36,414 bases of DNA from a virus. Positions 11,730 through 28,912 of this stretch are shown in pieces (position 1 is the stretch's first letter; every line of letters begins with the position of its first letter). Below the pieces are notes generated by a model that searched no databases, was not told the DNA's origin, and saw only the letters and a program-made list of their open reading frames with translations. The DNA lies in the IMG/VR virus record IMGVR_UViG_3300028654_000004, positions 1 through 36,414 of that record. One strand, 5' to 3'. The translations under genes were made by a program, and so were the position numbers.

Positions 11730-11742
11730 AGAGGTGGAACGA

Positions 11743-12537
11743 ATGTCACTCCTAATCATGGACTTGTCACGCGGCGAGTGGGATCCGACGCACCCGAAAA
11801 CAAAGGTAGACTTTGCGAAGGCGAAGGCCGCCGGTATTGTTGCATGCTACTTCCGCGACGCCAACGGGAAATATAACGACGCCACGGCGCCCACGTTCGA
11901 GCAGGACGCAAGCGCGGCCGGGCTGCCGTGGGGCGACTTCCTGACCTTGTACCCGCCGTCCGCTGGCATGGGCACCATACAGCAGCAGACGGAAAAGTTC
12001 ATCGTCAACGCGGCCACGGTTGTTGTTGGAAATATGCCGCTCGTGGTGGATTGGGAAGTCGAGGGCGTGACCTGGAACATGGCATATCAGGCCATCGCGC
12101 TTATCCAGGCAGCATTCCCCGGCAAAGAGATTATCATCTACAGCCGCGCCGAATATCTGGCGCGTATGCTGCCGAATAAGTACCTGCAAGCCGCGTCCTA
12201 CAAGTGGTTCCAGCAATTCGCCATTTGGCAGGCCGCCTATGGCTTCGTTACGCCCCCCGCCCTTCCATCTGGCTTTACTCGGGTGCTGTGGCAGTTCACC
12301 GACCGCGCCGACGCCTCGTTGTACGGCATCAATCCGCTCGAGGCGAAGGGCGTTGACATGTCATACTTTGACGGGACGATTGACCAGTTCAATACCCGTT
12401 TCGGGTTGCTTCCCGTTCCGCCAATCACTACCGATCCCGTGATTATGCCCACGCTGACGGTCAATGGCGTCACGGTTAGCACAACGCTAACATTCCACGC
12501 CGACCAGACAGTTACCGGAACGTGGAGGCCTGCATGA
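11743..12537 (+). CDS. Endolysin, GH25 muramidase
   Basis: Start ATG 11743 has AGAGAGG about 7 bases ahead; an in-frame GTG at 11734 would overlap that site. The 264-residue product has the GH25 lysozyme pattern: IMDLSRG with D7, AKAAGIVACYFR, LVVDWE with D103 and E105 (the DxE catalytic pair of the family), IIIYSRAEYL, FAIWQAAYG, LWQFTDRA and DMSYFDG. It cuts the glycan backbone of peptidoglycan. About 55 C-terminal residues after the catalytic domain (VPPITTDPVIMP on) are beta-prone and may be a small binding module. No signal peptide, so a holin should release it. Confidence 0.9.
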   Translation: MSLLIMDLSRGEWDPTHPKTKVDFAKAKAAGIVACYFRDANGKYNDATAPTFEQDASAAGLPWGDFLTLYPPSAGMGTIQQQTEKFIVNAATVVVGNMPLVVDWEVEGVTWNMAYQAIALIQAAFPGKEIIIYSRAEYLARMLPNKYLQAASYKWFQQFAIWQAAYGFVTPPALPSGFTRVLWQFTDRADASLYGINPLEAKGVDMSYFDGTIDQFNTRFGLLPVPPITTDPVIMPTLTVNGVTVSTTLTFHADQTVTGTWRPA

Positions 12538-13175
12538 GCCGCCTATCCGCCAAATCTCAGAGCGCGAAAAACAAAGCCGCCTTTGCTCATACCGTCCGCT
12601 ACCCCCGCGTCGGTATCTGTCGCATCCTGCACGATCAGGAATGCAGCCAGAAGCGCGGCGGCGGACAGTACCCCTACCTGGCGCGCAACTACAGCCAGCA
12701 GAAAGTGCGGGGCCTACCAGAGACCGTGCGCTACAATGGCGGCTCCGGGCACGTGGTGCTCGACCCGCCGTATGTCCAGCTAATAAAGCAGAGCAATTCT
12801 GCGCAAGCGTTCGGCTACCTGATACGGCTCCAGTCGGGATGGGTCAACTATGGCCCCTGGCCCAAGATCGAGCAATTGGGCTTCGGCGGGGATTACGTGG
12901 TGGTGACGGAGATCGTCGGCGGGAAATGCTACATCGAGGCATACGATAACCATCGCTCCCCCGCCTGGTACCAGCGCGACTACCTACAACTATTTACGGT
13001 GGTGTATTCCGATGACACCTACGGCCAGCCCGATTGCGCCCCGGTCACGACCTGCGCCATCGCTAACCCTGGCGAGCGGCTGTGGGTGCACGACTACGAT
13101 CTAACGTTTGTCCGCCCGCTAATCACGACGCCCGAGCCGGTCACACAGCACGCTACGGTACTGATACCCGCATAG
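12534..13175 (+). CDS. Unknown protein coupled to endolysin, 213 aa
   Basis: ATG 12534 overlaps the endolysin TGA. The basic N-terminus (LSAKSQSAKNKAAFAHTVR) precedes a beta-rich body with repeated aromatic steps (FGYLIRLQSGWVNYGPWPKI, YIEAYDNHRSPAWYQRDYL). Aromatic-rich repeats of this sort occur in carbohydrate or cell-wall binding proteins, and the coupling to the lysozyme gene fits, but no family is recognised. It has no membrane span. Confidence 0.5.
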   Translation: MSRLSAKSQSAKNKAAFAHTVRYPRVGICRILHDQECSQKRGGGQYPYLARNYSQQKVRGLPETVRYNGGSGHVVLDPPYVQLIKQSNSAQAFGYLIRLQSGWVNYGPWPKIEQLGFGGDYVVVTEIVGGKCYIEAYDNHRSPAWYQRDYLQLFTVVYSDDTYGQPDCAPVTTCAIANPGERLWVHDYDLTFVRPLITTPEPVTQHATVLIPA

Positions 13176-13184
13176 GAGCCACAC

Positions 13185-13505
13185 ATGACAGCTACGACAC
13201 CACAAAATAATGAGACGCTCACCGAAGTCCGCTCCATCCTGGAGCATGACAAAAAGGTGCCGCAGACGGTCGTCAACCGGCTTATTCTGGCGCTCCTTGC
13301 CGACAACTCGGAGCGGCTCTCCGTGATTGTCGTGGCTCAAGAAGAGCAAGATGCGCGCATCGGGAAGCTCGAGGGGAAAAGTATTGTCATGTGGATCGAC
13401 GCGCATCCCAAGCTTTCCGTTGCCCTACTAACCGCCCTACTGGTGCTGTGCGCCGTCATCCCCGAGTATGGCCCGGCACTGGCTAAAGCAATCGGGATAC
13501 CCTAG
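13185..13505 (+). CDS. Holin-like membrane protein, 106 aa
   Basis: GGAG precedes ATG 13185 by about 9 bases. The first 65 residues are soluble and helical (SILEHDKKVPQTVVNRLILALL, EEQDARIGKLEGK); one strong membrane span lies at about residues 77-93 (LSVALLTALLVLCAVIP). One-span proteins of this size at the end of the late operon next to the endolysin are often holins or holin partners. Direction and lack of C-terminal charge make this less typical, so the role is likely but not sure. Confidence 0.55.
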   Translation: MTATTPQNNETLTEVRSILEHDKKVPQTVVNRLILALLADNSERLSVIVVAQEEQDARIGKLEGKSIVMWIDAHPKLSVALLTALLVLCAVIPEYGPALAKAIGIP

Positions 13506-14826: not shown

Positions 14827-15024
14827 ATGAAAACAATTTACAAAGGATGGGAGATCGAAGCGCACCGGGAGCAGTCGTTGGGCGGTGACAAACTACTCTA
14901 CTTTTCTTTGTTTGATCCTAGCGGACGCGAAGTAGCCAGCGGACCATATACAGGGAGCGAAACTTCCCGCGAGTTCGTGGCGTTGCTCAAAAAACGAGTA
15001 GACAAGGAAATCGCCGGCGCTTAG
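14827..15024 (+). CDS. Small protein, 65 aa
   Basis: ATG 14827 lies 2 bases after the preceding stop; the frame open from 14782 overlaps that gene. The product begins MKTIYKGWEIEAHRE and alternates short beta strands with a C-terminal helix (EFVALLKKRVDKEIAG). No family is recognised. It is the last gene before the convergent terminators. Confidence 0.55.
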   Translation: MKTIYKGWEIEAHREQSLGGDKLLYFSLFDPSGREVASGPYTGSETSREFVALLKKRVDKEIAGA

Positions 15025-23307: not shown

Positions 23308-23679
23308 TTACACGCGCCTGAACGATACGGACGGTTCGCCGGTTTTCTGCGCGTCCTTGATCTGGGGGATGAAGCTCATCATGCCGTCCAGCTTCTTGCT
23401 ATCCCAACTCGTGCGGCCCTTATTCCAGACGGCCATGTAATATGCACCCTTGATGGTCGCGGCGCTCGCCAGGACCTCGGCAGAGATTTCATCTTTCAGC
23501 GTGGCGATATTCGCGGCGACGGCTTCGGCCTTCCCGCCAAACTCCGTCTTGATTTCGGCCATGCGTGCTTTGACTTCGGCGGGCATGGCTTCGTCGAGTA
23601 ACCGCTGCTGCTCGGCGTTCAGGTGGTCAAGCTCGCTTTCGTACTCTGCGATTGCGTCAAGTTTTGCTGTGGTGTCCAT
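23308..23679 (-). CDS. Coiled-coil early protein, 123 aa (possibly Gam-like)
   Basis: AGAGAGG stands about 6 bases before ATG 23679. Residues 1-75 are a long coiled coil (LDAIAEYESELDHLNAEQQR). The C-terminus contains YYMAVWNKGRTSWDSKKLDG and GEPSVSFRRV, a combination I associate with small phage proteins next to single-strand binding genes, sometimes called host nuclease inhibitors. The link to Gam is a guess. Confidence 0.55.
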   Translation of the reverse strand: MDTTAKLDAIAEYESELDHLNAEQQRLLDEAMPAEVKARMAEIKTEFGGKAEAVAANIATLKDEISAEVLASAATIKGAYYMAVWNKGRTSWDSKKLDGMMSFIPQIKDAQKTGEPSVSFRRV

Positions 23680-24855: not shown

Positions 24856-24884
24856 TTGACACTGCGCCCGATAGAGAGTAAGAT
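24856..24884 (+). promoter_or_regulatory. Repressor promoter with leaderless start
   Basis: TTGACA (24856-24861), 17-base spacer, TAAGAT (24879-24884). The repressor ATG is at 24891, about 7 bases after the -10 box, so transcription should begin at or next to the start codon. A dyad TATGT-atggtc-ACATA (24886-24901) overlaps the start and may serve self-control. Confidence 0.88.
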
Positions 24885-24890
24885 CTATGT

Positions 24891-25130
24891 ATGGTCACAT
24901 ATAAGTTTGCTTTGCGAGACATTGCACAAAATAAGGGCCTGAATAGTAACCAGGTGGCCGGGAAAGTTCATATGTCCCGCCAGGCTGTTTCTATGCTCAT
25001 GCGCCCCGACGTTCAGCAGGTGCGAGTGGAGACGATTTCGAAGCTCTGCGCCGGCCTGGACGTAACGCCTGCTGAACTGTACGTTCCCGCCGCGCCGGAT
25101 GCGCAAGGGACGCAAGAGAGAGAGGGTTGA
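24891..25130 (+). CDS. XRE-family (Cro/cI-type) repressor, 79 aa
   Basis: A short HTH protein: FALRDIAQNKGLNSNQVAGK (helices 1-2), VHMSRQAVSMLMRP (recognition helix about residues 26-38), VETISKLCAGLDVTPAELYV (helices 4-5, residues 46-65). This is the common HTH_3 layout, with no added dimer domain. There is no ribosome site because the transcript likely starts at the ATG, as with lambda cI from PRM. It lies between divergent promoters and should repress the early operon. ATG 24887 is in a frame that stops at once. Confidence 0.85.
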   Translation: MVTYKFALRDIAQNKGLNSNQVAGKVHMSRQAVSMLMRPDVQQVRVETISKLCAGLDVTPAELYVPAAPDAQGTQEREG

Positions 25131-25134
25131 GACA

Positions 25135-26037
25135 ATGATTGAAATAAAGGACATCAAAATCGGCAACAAGAAATTAGCCACGATCTTGAAAAATCATCAG
25201 AAGTGGCTCAATAACGAACCGGGGGGGGTGCGTGCCGACCTGAGCTCCGCCAACCTGAGCTCCGCCAACCTGAGCTCCGCCGACCTGAGCTACGCCGACC
25301 TGAGCTCCGCCAACCTGATCTCCGCCAACCTGAGCTCCGCCAACCTGAGCTCCGCCAACCTGAGCTCCGCCGACCTGAGCTACGCCAACCTGAGCTACGC
25401 CAACCTGAGCTACGCCAACCTGATCTCCGCCGACCTGCGCTACGCCAACCTGCGCTCCGACCTGAGCTACGCCAACCTGAGCTACGCCAACCTGAGCTAC
25501 GCCAACCTGATCTCCGCCGACCTGCGCTACGCCAACCTGCGCTCCGCCAACCTGAGCTCCGCCAACCTGCGCTCCGCCGACCTGCGCTACGCCAACCTGA
25601 GCTCCGCCAACCTGCGCTCCGCCGACCTGCGCTACGCCAACCTGAGCTCCGCCAACCTGCGCTCCGCCATAAACTTATCTGATCTCATGGTTGCAATGAC
25701 GAAAATCTCACCGGATACCGGCGAGTTCACCGCATGGAAGAAAGTCAATACCTCGGGCGGAAGTGCGATTGCACGGCTCGTGATCCCCGCCGATGCAAAA
25801 CGCAGCAACTCTACGGGCCGTAAGTGCCGCGCGTCGAGCGCTATTGTCATCGCTCTCGAGACTGTCACGGGCGAAGCGCTCCCTGCTGATACCGTGGCCT
25901 GGTCGAAACGGGATAAAGCATTTCCGTATCGCGTCGGCGCTACGCTTGTACCCGACTCGTGGGACGAGAACAGATGGGGCGAATGCTCGCACGGCATCCA
26001 CTATTTCATCACACGGGAAGAGGCGGTTGATTTCTAG
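25135..26037 (+). CDS. Pentapeptide-repeat protein with DUF5758-like C-terminus
   Basis: Start ATG 25135 after the repressor stop; the longer frame from 25099 overlaps the repressor. Residues 1-33 are a short lead (IEIKDIKIGNKKLATILKNH). Residues 34-177 are 29 A(N/D)L(S/R/I)(S/Y) repeats, one of them a four-residue unit, expected to fold into a right-handed square beta-helix. The remaining 120 residues (MVAMTKISPDTGEF..., WDENRWGECSHGIHYFITRE) match the domain often found behind pentapeptide repeats (DUF5758 type). Pentapeptide proteins may mimic DNA and block gyrase. Cotranscribed with the repressor, so possibly expressed in the prophage state. Confidence 0.85.
   Translation: MIEIKDIKIGNKKLATILKNHQKWLNNEPGGVRADLSSANLSSANLSSADLSYADLSSANLISANLSSANLSSANLSSADLSYANLSYANLSYANLISADLRYANLRSDLSYANLSYANLSYANLISADLRYANLRSANLSSANLRSADLRYANLSSANLRSADLRYANLSSANLRSAINLSDLMVAMTKISPDTGEFTAWKKVNTSGGSAIARLVIPADAKRSNSTGRKCRASSAIVIALETVTGEALPADTVAWSKRDKAFPYRVGATLVPDSWDENRWGECSHGIHYFITREEAVDF
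25234..25665 (+). repeat. 29 tandem 15-bp units (pentapeptide code) with higher-order copies
   Basis: 432 bases equal 29 units of 15 minus one lost codon (unit 16, 25459-25470, lacks GCC). Units 10-15 (25369-25458) are copied as units 16-21 (25459-25545). A 45-base block (units 22-24, 25546-25590) recurs as units 25-27 and again in part as 28-29. Codon choice is almost constant (GCC, AAC/GAC, CTG, AGC/CGC/ATC, TCC/TAC), so the array expanded recently. Confidence 0.93.
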
Positions 26038-26064: not shown

Positions 26065-26272
26065 GTGGCGGCGGCGAGACTGGCGCGCGATAGCGTGTAC
26101 CAAGAAGCGAAAGCGATGCACTGCCACTTTAGAAAGCCTGCGCCGTGTCTATCGGGACACAAGCCACTAAGCTGGCACCGAGCGGCGCAGGCAACAGATG
26201 GGCGGCTGGGATTATCGCTACCTGGCACGGCATGAGATAGGACTAGCCGCCCATCACTTTGGAGAACAATGA
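26065..26272 (+). pseudogene. Possible small frameshifted gene before VRR-NUC gene
   Basis: The gap 26038-26268 has no clean gene. One frame from GTG 26065 reads DSVYQEAKAMHCHFRKPAPC and on to RAAQATDGRLG, stopping at 26235. The +1 frame, open from 26171, reads GGWDYRYLARHEIGLAAHHF and ends in a TGA (26270-26272) that overlaps the next ATG. Both halves look protein-like and abut near 26190-26200. Either one small gene is broken by a frameshift, or the second is a separate 24-residue ORF from ATG 26198. Confidence 0.3.
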
Positions 26273-26628
26273 CAGAACACGCAGAGCAAGCCGCATTTTG
26301 TGATTGGATGAACGTACAGTATCCAGATGTGCTGTACTTCTCTATTCCAAACGGCGGATGGCTGGCTGGTGACGCGGGCCAGCGCGCTGGGCAAATGAAC
26401 AAGCTCAAAGGTGAAGGATTGTTGCCTGGCGTCGCCGACCTGTTCATTGCAGAACCGCGCGGTGAGTTCAAGGGGATGTTCGTGGAAATGAAGCAGCGCG
26501 GCGGGAAACTAAGCGACAATCAGAAGTGGTTTCTTGCCGAGGCTGAGAAACGCGGATACTTTACGGCGGTCGCCATGAACGGCTTCGATGACGCGCAAAA
26601 TATAACCGAGTGGTATCTAGCACAGTAG
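26269..26628 (+). CDS. VRR-NUC domain nuclease, 119 aa
   Basis: The product shows the VRR-NUC (PD-(D/E)xK) order: SIPNGGW (26-31), NKLKGEGLLPGVADLFI with D57, MFVEMK with E73 and K75, and RGGKLSDNQKWFLAEAEKRG. Single-domain VRR-NUC enzymes are common in phages beside terminase and structural genes and cut branched or single-strand junction DNA. It is the first gene of the late block. Confidence 0.88.
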   Translation: MTEHAEQAAFCDWMNVQYPDVLYFSIPNGGWLAGDAGQRAGQMNKLKGEGLLPGVADLFIAEPRGEFKGMFVEMKQRGGKLSDNQKWFLAEAEKRGYFTAVAMNGFDDAQNITEWYLAQ

Positions 26629-26651: not shown

Positions 26652-26855
26652 ATGATGCGCAAAGAACCAAGTGATGAGTTGTTGGATGCGCTGGGGAAAA
26701 TTGCAGATAGCATTGACAATATCATGGCGGCTACTGAATTGCCGCTACCGCCCGCGATGCACCTCGAGCAGATCAAATACCGCTTGCCTGAATGGTCGGC
26801 ACAAATCAAGGGAATTTATGTTGAATTGTGCGGCGAAAACCCCTGGGAAGAATGA
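26652..26855 (+). CDS. Small protein, 67 aa
   Basis: Start ATG 26652 with GAGGAG five bases ahead; the longer frame from 26610 is not used. The product is helical and acidic (DELLDALGKIADSIDNIMAA, PEWSAQIKGIYVELCG). No family recognised. Its stop overlaps the next ATG. Confidence 0.55.
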   Translation: MMRKEPSDELLDALGKIADSIDNIMAATELPLPPAMHLEQIKYRLPEWSAQIKGIYVELCGENPWEE

Positions 26856-27763
26856 CCCGCTACTTAACTCTCTCCCTGCTCCTTCTCTGCGCCTCCTGCG
26901 CCCCCGTGACCGCCGGCGCATCGGTGCCGCTTTCCAGCCCGCAGGCCTCGCCCGTGCTGCTGACCGCGACGCAGTTTGTCACGCCGACCGAGACGCCCAG
27001 CCCGACGGTTGACTACCAGGCCACGACCAACGCGGCACAGGCGACCAGCGACTATACCCGGCTCCAGGCCGTCCAGATCGCAGCGACCGCCAGCGAGGCC
27101 GCAGCGACGCGCACGCAGGCAGCGTTCGGCCTGGCGCTGACCAGCGACGAGAGCAACCGGGCAGCGGGGGCCACGTCTCAGAGCATCCGGGCCACGCAGG
27201 CTGTGATCGAAGCGACGCGCACGGCGGACGGGGAAGCAATGGCGATTGCGGCGCCGACGATAATTGCGGCGATGACGGCAGCGACGTTCACGCAGGCACA
27301 CGAGGTGACGGGCTTTGTATTCAACGGGATCGCGGCGCTGATTGCGCTGGCCGCTGTGTTGGTGGCCGTTGCGTGGAGCGTCGCAAAGCTGAGGCAGCCG
27401 GTCGACGTCAACGTAGCGGACGGCTGGCAGCCGATCCCGCCCGAGCCAGTAGAGCGCGCGGTCAACACGGTAGCGCCTGGCGTGTACGACCTAGACACGG
27501 TGCCGCCGGGAGATCCCGCGAAGTTTGGCGAGTTTTGCCGGTATGCCCTGAGTGGCAGCCCGCTTGGTTCCGTGGCCGTGGTTGGCGCGGGAGTGTATGG
27601 GTCGTACAGTCAGTACAACCCCGTGCGTGATTGGCTCAAGAAGAAAGAATATATCTTGCTGGGCGCGGATGGCGCGGGAAGTCTATCCAAGAGCGGAAAA
27701 GAGTTCTGCCATGATTGGATGGCAGCATCCTCCTCCCCCGTCCCGCCAGATGGCCAAAAATAG
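26852..27763 (+). CDS. Membrane-spanning lipoprotein with C-terminal winged-helix-like domain
   Basis: ATG 26852 overlaps the previous stop; GTG 26828 would add a basic front. Residues 1-16 are a lipoprotein-type signal with cysteine C16 (LLLLCASC). Residues 27-52 form a P/T-rich stalk (TPTETPSPT), 53-150 an alanine/threonine/glutamine-rich helical section, and 153-178 a membrane span (FVFNGIAALIALAAVLVAVA). Residues 218-290 (AKFGEFCRYALSGSPLG, VRDWLKKKEYILL, LSKSGKEFCHDWM) resemble a small winged helix. The order outside-membrane-inside suggests a surface-to-DNA signalling or anchoring protein. The stalk type is common in Chloroflexota. Confidence 0.6.
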   Translation: MTRYLTLSLLLLCASCAPVTAGASVPLSSPQASPVLLTATQFVTPTETPSPTVDYQATTNAAQATSDYTRLQAVQIAATASEAAATRTQAAFGLALTSDESNRAAGATSQSIRATQAVIEATRTADGEAMAIAAPTIIAAMTAATFTQAHEVTGFVFNGIAALIALAAVLVAVAWSVAKLRQPVDVNVADGWQPIPPEPVERAVNTVAPGVYDLDTVPPGDPAKFGEFCRYALSGSPLGSVAVVGAGVYGSYSQYNPVRDWLKKKEYILLGADGAGSLSKSGKEFCHDWMAASSSPVPPDGQK

Positions 27764-27848
27764 CCCCCTATTGGTTATGTTTGCAACAATAACGATCATA
27801 ACTACGCTAGGGGGGTGGGCGGAGACGCCCGGAAAGGTCGAAAAATGA
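27750..27848 (+). CDS. 32-aa single-span membrane peptide
   Basis: ATG 27750 to TGA 27848, overlapping the previous gene's end by 14 bases and the next start by ATGA. The peptide is MAKNSPLLVMFATITIITTL followed by GGWAETPGKVEK. No ribosome site is seen, so it may depend on coupling. Confidence 0.4.
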   Translation: MAKNSPLLVMFATITIITTLGGWAETPGKVEK

Positions 27849-28015
27849 GCAGATACTTGGCTTTTATGTCGGTGTGTTTTGTCGCGTCAACTCTCATTAC
27901 CCTGATTATATTGGACCGGAGCGCAGCGTACTTCATCATGGCGATTTCCGCGTGCCTGGCGCTGGCGTCAATTGCCTGGAGTTTGGCTAATCCAGTGGAA
28001 GGCCCTAATGCGTAA
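27845..28015 (+). CDS. Two-span membrane protein, 56 aa
   Basis: ATG 27845 overlaps the stop of the preceding peptide. Hydrophobic segments lie at about residues 3-23 (YLAFMSVCFVASTLITLIIL) and 28-47 (AYFIMAISACLALASIAW). Function unknown. The next gene starts within its last codons. Confidence 0.5.
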   Translation: MSRYLAFMSVCFVASTLITLIILDRSAAYFIMAISACLALASIAWSLANPVEGPNA

Positions 28016-28679
28016 ACTCCCGACCTACCTGACCGCTATAATTCTGACCTGCACCGTGCCGCGCGTGGCTGATTTCGGTATCGTCTACATGCACGCCTGG
28101 CCGGTCATTGCCTGGGCGTTCTCGCTTGTCATCGCTCTCGGCGTATGGGCGTCAGCTTACTTTACCCGCGAGCACGTGACCAGCGATGACCCGAAACGCC
28201 GTCGCCAGTCTGACCAGGTGCGCAGGCAAGCAGGCGCGTGGATGCTGTTATTCGTCATTGTTGACGGCGGCTTCAACTTGCTTGACGTGTGGCTGGCGTT
28301 ACCAGGAGGAAGTGTCCCGGTTTTGCAATTCGGCGCGCTGGTCTACGGAGCGTTCCCAACCGTTGCGTCAGCGGCGCTAGGGTCGCTCCAGGGCGCTGTA
28401 GATAGATTGCCAGCGGGGGCGCAGCATAAGTACCCGCTGCTTATCTCGCTCAAGTCGCTAGCGCAACGGCGCATCAACGACGCGCTAAAGCGGCCAGCGA
28501 AGGCAACGAAGCCAGCGGCCGCAGCGGAGCCGATATTAGCAAGCAGCGAAGGTTTATTCAAGTGCTCCCGCTGTGAGTACAAGACCGACCCGGCGGACAG
28601 CGATTTCATCCAACAGAAGCGCATGGCGGGACACAGCAGCAGCCATACGCGAGCAGACGCGAGAAGGGTGACGAAATGA
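28008..28679 (+). CDS. Multi-span membrane protein with C-terminal C2H2-like zinc finger, 223 aa
   Basis: Start ATG 28008, overlapping the previous gene. Hydrophobic segments at about residues 8-25, 31-52, 77-99 and 104-127 form the N-terminal two thirds; basic segments (KRRRQSDQVRRQ, 63-74) lie between. After an alanine/proline linker there is a C2H2-like finger: C186-x2-C189 with H209-x3-H213. The finger should lie in the cytoplasm. A membrane-bound nucleic-acid or protein binding role is suggested. With the lipoprotein upstream it forms a set of membrane proteins with binding tails. Confidence 0.5.
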   Translation: MRKLPTYLTAIILTCTVPRVADFGIVYMHAWPVIAWAFSLVIALGVWASAYFTREHVTSDDPKRRRQSDQVRRQAGAWMLLFVIVDGGFNLLDVWLALPGGSVPVLQFGALVYGAFPTVASAALGSLQGAVDRLPAGAQHKYPLLISLKSLAQRRINDALKRPAKATKPAAAAEPILASSEGLFKCSRCEYKTDPADSDFIQQKRMAGHSSSHTRADARRVTK

Positions 28680-28885
28680 GCGACGGCGACCCGCTCCATG
28701 GCACGTCTGCGTTCAATCGCAACGGCTTCTTCGCCGCCATGCAACTGACTGGCGGATACAAGGCGCTTCGTCTATTCCTCGCCGCATCCTACCAGCCGAA
28801 CTACCGCGCCGAGACATCGGACGTGCGGGAAGCGGTCGAGATATGGCCGCGCAATGGGAAGGCATGGACGGGAGAAACGCGATAG
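28676..28885 (+). CDS. Small protein, 69 aa
   Basis: ATG 28676 overlaps the upstream TGA. The product (AFNRNGFFAAMQLTGGYKAL, RLFLAASYQPNYRAE) is soluble with aromatic residues and an acidic end. Not recognised. It is the last gene before a promoter-like site. Confidence 0.45.
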   Translation: MSDGDPLHGTSAFNRNGFFAAMQLTGGYKALRLFLAASYQPNYRAETSDVREAVEIWPRNGKAWTGETR

Positions 28886-28906
28886 GCAACACATGTTGTT
28901 TTGTTG

Positions 28907-28912
28907 TATAAT
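28907..28912 (+). promoter_or_regulatory. Possible promoter -10 box upstream of terminase
   Basis: A perfect TATAAT 11 bases before ATG 28923. The best -35 is weak (TAGGCA at 28883-28888, spacer 18). It could be an activator-dependent late promoter for the packaging and head genes. Confidence 0.4.

Follow-up and report, generated by a model that had tools for sequence, protein, structure and literature searches.

A conserved pair of predicted membrane protein genes in two uncultivated phages and its possible link to DNA

The phage and its gene cluster

The stretch of DNA analysed, here termed the window, is the complete IMG/VR record IMGVR_UViG_3300028654_000004 (36,414 bases; 36.4 kb), which reads as a tailed phage known from sequence alone. 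Replication genes on the minus strand encode a DNA methyltransferase, a primase-helicase, an O-like initiator and an HNH protein, and the set is of the DnaB/primase type. The lysis region (11734–13505) encodes a GH25 endolysin together with a small protein of one span. No integrase or other sign of a temperate life cycle appears among the genes scanned.

The genes of interest belong to a plus-strand run headed by an HTH regulator (24891–25130), with a promoter-like site at 24856–24884 directly 5′ of it. The regulator is followed by a pentapeptide-repeat/DUF5758 protein (25099–26037), a VRR_NUC nuclease (26269–26628), the A–D cluster, the small and large terminase subunits, a portal protein (weak match) and head genes. 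Another promoter-like site (28883–28912) is found between ORF E and ORF F; these sites are consensus matches only, and four are present where shuffles lead one to expect 2.2. The large terminase subunit is 62–64% identical to that of a 6.6-kb contig, DYIV01000104.1 (L028), from a mine MAG. This MAG, labelled Slackia heliotrinireducens, provides the closest terminase in any named genome (a 62% match), and both its label and its binning look doubtful. The Chloroflexota host implied in the original prediction is conjectural.

Four reading frames with overlapping starts were proposed in the original prediction, and these were confirmed with corrected limits, all on the plus strand: gene A (26852–27763, 303 aa), ORF B (27750–27848, 32 aa), ORF C (27845–28015, 56 aa) and gene D (28008–28679, 223 aa). 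ORF E (28676–28885) follows; it encodes a soluble 69-aa protein for which no family was found. Overlaps are 4 bp between A and the small gene before it, 14 bp for A/B, 4 bp for B/C, 8 bp for C/D and 4 bp for D/E. As all adjacent genes, from the small one preceding A through E, overlap by 4–14 bases, translational coupling is plausible. A Shine-Dalgarno match of at least three bases precedes A, C, D and E, and no such sequence was seen upstream of ORF B.

B and C had been described as two tiny membrane proteins. Their hydrophobic stretches (one in B, two in C) agree with this, but B is a doubtful gene, and neither frame has a counterpart in the relative described below. The conserved unit is therefore A plus D, and a role for B and C as parts of a device is unsupported.

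A relative contig

One relative was found, IMGVR_UViG_3300032893_000099 (G001, 44.8 kb). Its homologues of A (L002:4593–5483) and D (L002:6001–6714) are 51% and 59% identical to those of the window, and their order is kept. A pentapeptide/DUF5758 protein (63% identical and in the same place) and a nuclease precede A, and further genes and an unrelated terminase come after D. The nuclease is a DUF559 protein (L002 4228–4596) whose stop overlaps the A start, and it is unrelated to the VRR_NUC protein of the window. The presence of non-homologous nucleases in one slot suggests that the slot itself is functional and has been kept. Where B and C would lie, the relative has a gene for an 89-aa protein and another homologous to the distant window gene at 14827–15021. 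No similarity between the terminases or portals of the two phages was detectable. The lysis region is conserved in the relative at a site separate from A–D. The two phages also share a gene next to the endolysin gene (76%) and one on the minus strand (78%). These are thus mosaic phages in which A and D stay together while the genes around and between them change. The homologues are in this weak sense not scattered, as A and D stand together in the one relative known.

Some of the smaller shared genes deserve mention in their own right. The endolysin-adjacent gene (12522–13175) overlaps the endolysin gene and encodes a 217-aa protein of no known family, which keeps its high identity in an otherwise divergent relative. 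The minus-strand gene (23308–23679) encodes a 123-aa protein whose Pfam and PHROG matches are not above chance. Queries with the lysis gene and the conserved minus-strand gene returned no further relatives. A gene for a protein of 65–70 aa beginning MKTxYKGWEI, 73% identical between the phages, follows the lysis region of the window (14827–15021) but comes directly before D in the relative (L002 5796–6008); this small gene has moved between accessory sites.

Gene A

The A protein has, in order, a signal/lipobox-like start, a P/T-rich stalk (residues about 20–55), an Ala/Thr-rich helical stretch (about 56–148), a single strong membrane span (about 151–180; 149–182 by hydropathy, KD 2.63), a linker and a winged-helix tail. 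Residues 56–150 are 32% Ala and 17% Thr, with one Pro and three Gly. About 130 residues are predicted to be extracytoplasmic and 120 to form a cytoplasmic tail. The stalk and the single span are as first proposed.

The description of A as a lipoprotein holds in part. The protein has a start of the expected kind, LLLLCASC, and this motif is identical in the relative. However, the lipobox, LCASC, has a Cys at −3 in both phages and fails the pattern [LVI][ASTVI][GAS]C at the signal peptide end. Lipobox deviations occur in many real lipoproteins, and lipidation of A through a non-canonical lipobox is plausible. The combination of signal and span also brought to mind a spanin; this was rejected since the cytoplasmic part of A includes a folded domain of ~70 residues and the lysis genes are elsewhere.

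The tail had been described as winged-helix-like, and modelling supports this. Residues 222–294 (27515–27733, plus strand) were modelled by AlphaFold2 from a two-sequence alignment with a pLDDT of 80–88. The predicted order is H-H-H-E-E-H, with helices at 29–40, 47–53, 59–71 and 87–101 and strands at 75–77 and 83–85 in the numbering of the modelled piece. The confident model thus has the three helices and two-strand wing (H-H-H-S-S) of a winged helix. Foldseek matches in the PDB are the winged-helix repressors DtxR, MepR, OhrR, MntR, MarR, CggR and AspA; the probability is 0.97–0.99, but E is only about 0.08–0.1 and TM about 0.5 for a query of 110 residues with disordered ends. The viral matches include wH/HTH and DNA-binding proteins. 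Pfam, PHROGs and PDB sequence searches for a named winged-helix family were empty or gave chance matches only. The model and the Foldseek matches support a winged-helix fold, but neither a family nor DNA binding.

Codon comparison with the relative gives a dN/dS of ~0.41 for A and ~0.27 for D, rough ratios as dS is near saturation. Within A, the winged helix evolves fastest and is the least conserved (dN 0.58). It is nearly neutral in charge (+8/−6) and has no conserved basic face. Selection therefore gives DNA binding by A no support, and the domain may well bind protein rather than DNA. Conservation is found elsewhere in A: an extracytoplasmic stretch at residues 84–110, AATRTQAAFGLALTSDESNRAAGATSQ (27101–27181, plus strand), is near-identical in L002, and the linker adjoining the winged helix is conserved (PGVYDLDTVPPGDPAKF) and nearly invariant immediately before the fold (APGVYDLDTVPPGDPAKF).

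These features raise the question of whether A is an envelope-sensing regulator that senses the cell surface and acts through its winged helix on transcription or on D, in the manner of one-component regulators such as ToxR/CadC. Like these proteins, A joins in one polypeptide a region outside the cytoplasm, a span and a winged helix on the cytoplasmic side, and the conserved outer stretch and the conserved linker beside the fold are in keeping with such a role. The domain order is reversed, however: the winged helix of ToxR/CadC is N-terminal and sequence-specific, whereas that of A is C-terminal, behind a secretion-signal-like start. With a generic fold match, near-neutral charge and little conservation in the domain itself, a sensing role appears quite unlikely.

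Gene D and its finger

The D protein has four hydrophobic stretches, in agreement with the four spans first proposed. The N terminus has two K/R residues, the loop between spans 2 and 3 is +7/−4 and the tail is +18/−9, whereas the short loops on the opposite side are uncharged. By the positive-inside rule, both ends of D are predicted to be cytoplasmic.

A C2H2-type finger is encoded at the end of the tail (residues 183–217; 28554–28658, plus strand). All elements of the classical core are present, as F184-x-C186-x2-C189-x10-F200-x5-M206-x2-H209-x3-H213, and a zinc ion may be bound. The second Cys and second aromatic residue are separated by 10 residues versus the classical 3; the additional 7 would give a longer hairpin loop. 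In the classical register, Q202, K204 and R205 (−1, 2 and 3) and G208 fall at contact positions. The search pattern for the finger is unique in the window and has no matches in 100 shuffles. Pfam zf-H2C2_5 gives 12.0–13.7 bits, below its 27-bit cut-off, and the AlphaFold2 model of D has a mean pLDDT of 43 (35–41 across the finger) and is unusable as a fold, only its helices being taken into account. Because this model failed, the case for the finger is made by its sequence and by selection. The finger first proposed is upheld for its core and its conservation, but not by profile score.

Purifying selection on the finger is very strong. Of its 35 residues, 33 are identical in the relative despite nine synonymous codon changes, with a dN of 0.06; elsewhere in D the dN is 0.30–0.73, the upper value being that of the linker before the finger. 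No other part of A or D is under as much constraint, which makes the finger the best-supported functional element.

Protein binding is common among winged helices and C2H2 fingers, and both domains might be protein–protein modules with no DNA role, acting in late functions such as the timing of lysis or the membrane-associated assembly of virions. The lack of a conserved basic face in A and the adjoining small membrane genes are consistent with this. On the other hand, Q, K and R are kept on the finger helix, and the phage has a separate lysis region with its own endolysin and one-span protein, which in the relative too lies apart from A–D. We consider a pair with no DNA role to be on the improbable side.

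Distribution

Outside of the one contig, the pair was not found. Among cultured and GenBank phages no relative of A or D was found, and plasmids, searched with D, gave none either. In IMG/VR, queries with the proteins one at a time, with two-row alignments, with a DNA pattern for the finger and with sequences taken from the relative itself returned only the one contig; six other matches to the finger pattern are not D relatives. Pattern scans of GTDB showed no A or D relative and returned only two terminase fragments; pattern scans reach close relatives only, and with no Chloroflexota genome as centre, rarity may be overstated. Within the phylum to which the best terminase MAG belongs, 397 genomes were searched by profile, and A gave no match. 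In the same 397 genomes a weak D match (E 2e-4) proved to be a shadow frame that overlaps a ParA-like protein's reading frame on the other strand, and it was rejected. Profile and feature scans of terminase relatives L005–L023 showed no A- or D-like genes. As only two phages have the pair and close terminase relatives do not, A and D are accessory and outside of the core packaging machinery.

Exclusion of rival phages is compatible with the accessory distribution, with the HTH regulator at the head of the run and with the conserved stretch in the outer part of A. In superinfection exclusion or abortive infection, the pair would be in the membrane of an infected or lysogenic cell and block entry or replication of rival DNA; the extracytoplasmic stalk of A would meet the incoming phage, and the cytoplasmic tails would seize its DNA. 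The near invariance of residues 84–110 is in keeping with such contact, and there is precedent in the membrane-anchored nucleic-acid-binding immunity proteins PdpSau and AbiP and in excluding lipoproteins such as Llp of T5. Against this, PADLOC defence models gave no match, the genes scanned have no temperate signature, and the pair is just before the terminase, away from the host-range and lysis genes. We view this role as somewhat unlikely.

A possible membrane anchor for DNA

The molecular reading that the data best support is a membrane anchor in which the D tail contacts nucleic acid. D would be held in the inner membrane by its four spans, with the basic, fingered tail contacting nucleic acid in the cytoplasm. 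A would reach from the outer face through its one span to the cytoplasmic winged helix and, if it interacts with D, would help assemble or position the complex by contacting protein or DNA. Along with the nuclease encoded immediately before A, the complex would keep phage DNA at the membrane. This DNA would most likely be the phage's own, in the form of concatemers that are replicating or maturing shortly before they are packaged.

Several observations argue for an anchor. The finger is constrained and has Q, K and R at classical DNA-contact positions, the D tail is basic, and the A tail is a predicted winged helix. The order of A and D, and their place between a nuclease and the terminase, are kept even though the terminases are dissimilar; this location speaks for a role in handling DNA of the phage itself. 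The nuclease slot is itself kept, and phi29 p16.7 and p1 offer a precedent. Other observations argue against it. The ~130 extracytoplasmic residues of A, with their conserved stretch, are more than a plain DNA tether needs, the winged helix is fast-evolving and nearly neutral, and the pair is an accessory of two phages with an uninformative model for D. An anchor for DNA, whether the phage's own or that of an excluded rival, is thus put forward tentatively and as short of probable.

The envelope-to-DNA device of the original prediction is partly supported, and in a weak sense it withstands both of the checks set to refute it: the winged-helix model is confident, and the homologues stand together. 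Both tails look like binding domains, and the pair is kept in the relative, but B and C are not conserved parts, A draws no support from selection as a DNA binder, and the findings suit sensing, exclusion and tethering alike. It is doubtful that A, D and the neighbouring nuclease hold or process DNA at the membrane as an undescribed gene pair and architecture linking envelope to DNA. If DNA is held there, an uncultivated phage group would have either a defined site at the membrane where DNA is handled or a new means of exclusion, and a C2H2-type finger would have been fixed to the bacterial membrane by a phage. In either case A and D represent two orphan protein families, each with a clear domain that lends itself to testing: a winged helix of 73 residues in A and a finger of 35 in D.

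Comparison with known systems

The SpdB/DUF2637 plasmid-spread proteins of Streptomyces are multi-span membrane proteins with a cytoplasmic DNA-binding tail. D resembles them in its multiple spans and cytoplasmic tail, but it has no match to DUF2637 (PF10935), and identity with SpdB was rejected.

By the sequence tests made, none of phi29 p16.7 and p1, PdpSau, AbiP and Llp appears to be a homologue of A or D. Llp of T5 is among the phage lipoproteins that exclude superinfection (PMC9586334). Llp and Cor share with A a possible lipidation and an outer-face position; however, they are small lipoproteins with no second span or cytoplasmic domain, and the lipobox of A is non-canonical. PdpSau of S. 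aureus prophages is a membrane-anchored, nucleic-acid-binding immunity protein (PMC10127798), and AbiP of Lactococcus is cited there as another. These phage-linked proteins likewise combine a membrane anchor with a cytoplasmic domain of nucleic-acid-binding type, but they have one N-terminal span and an OB-like fold, with no winged helix, finger or paired gene.

In Bacillus phage phi29, p16.7 and p1 act as membrane organisers through which replication of the viral DNA is tied to the membrane (PMC4974454). Searches showed no sequence relation between p16.7 and A or D, its spans and fold are different, and phi29 replication is protein-primed, in contrast to the DnaB/primase-type set of the window phage. 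The likeness is one of role, which for A and D would be that of p16.7: a phage-encoded membrane protein linking the replication of viral DNA to the membrane.
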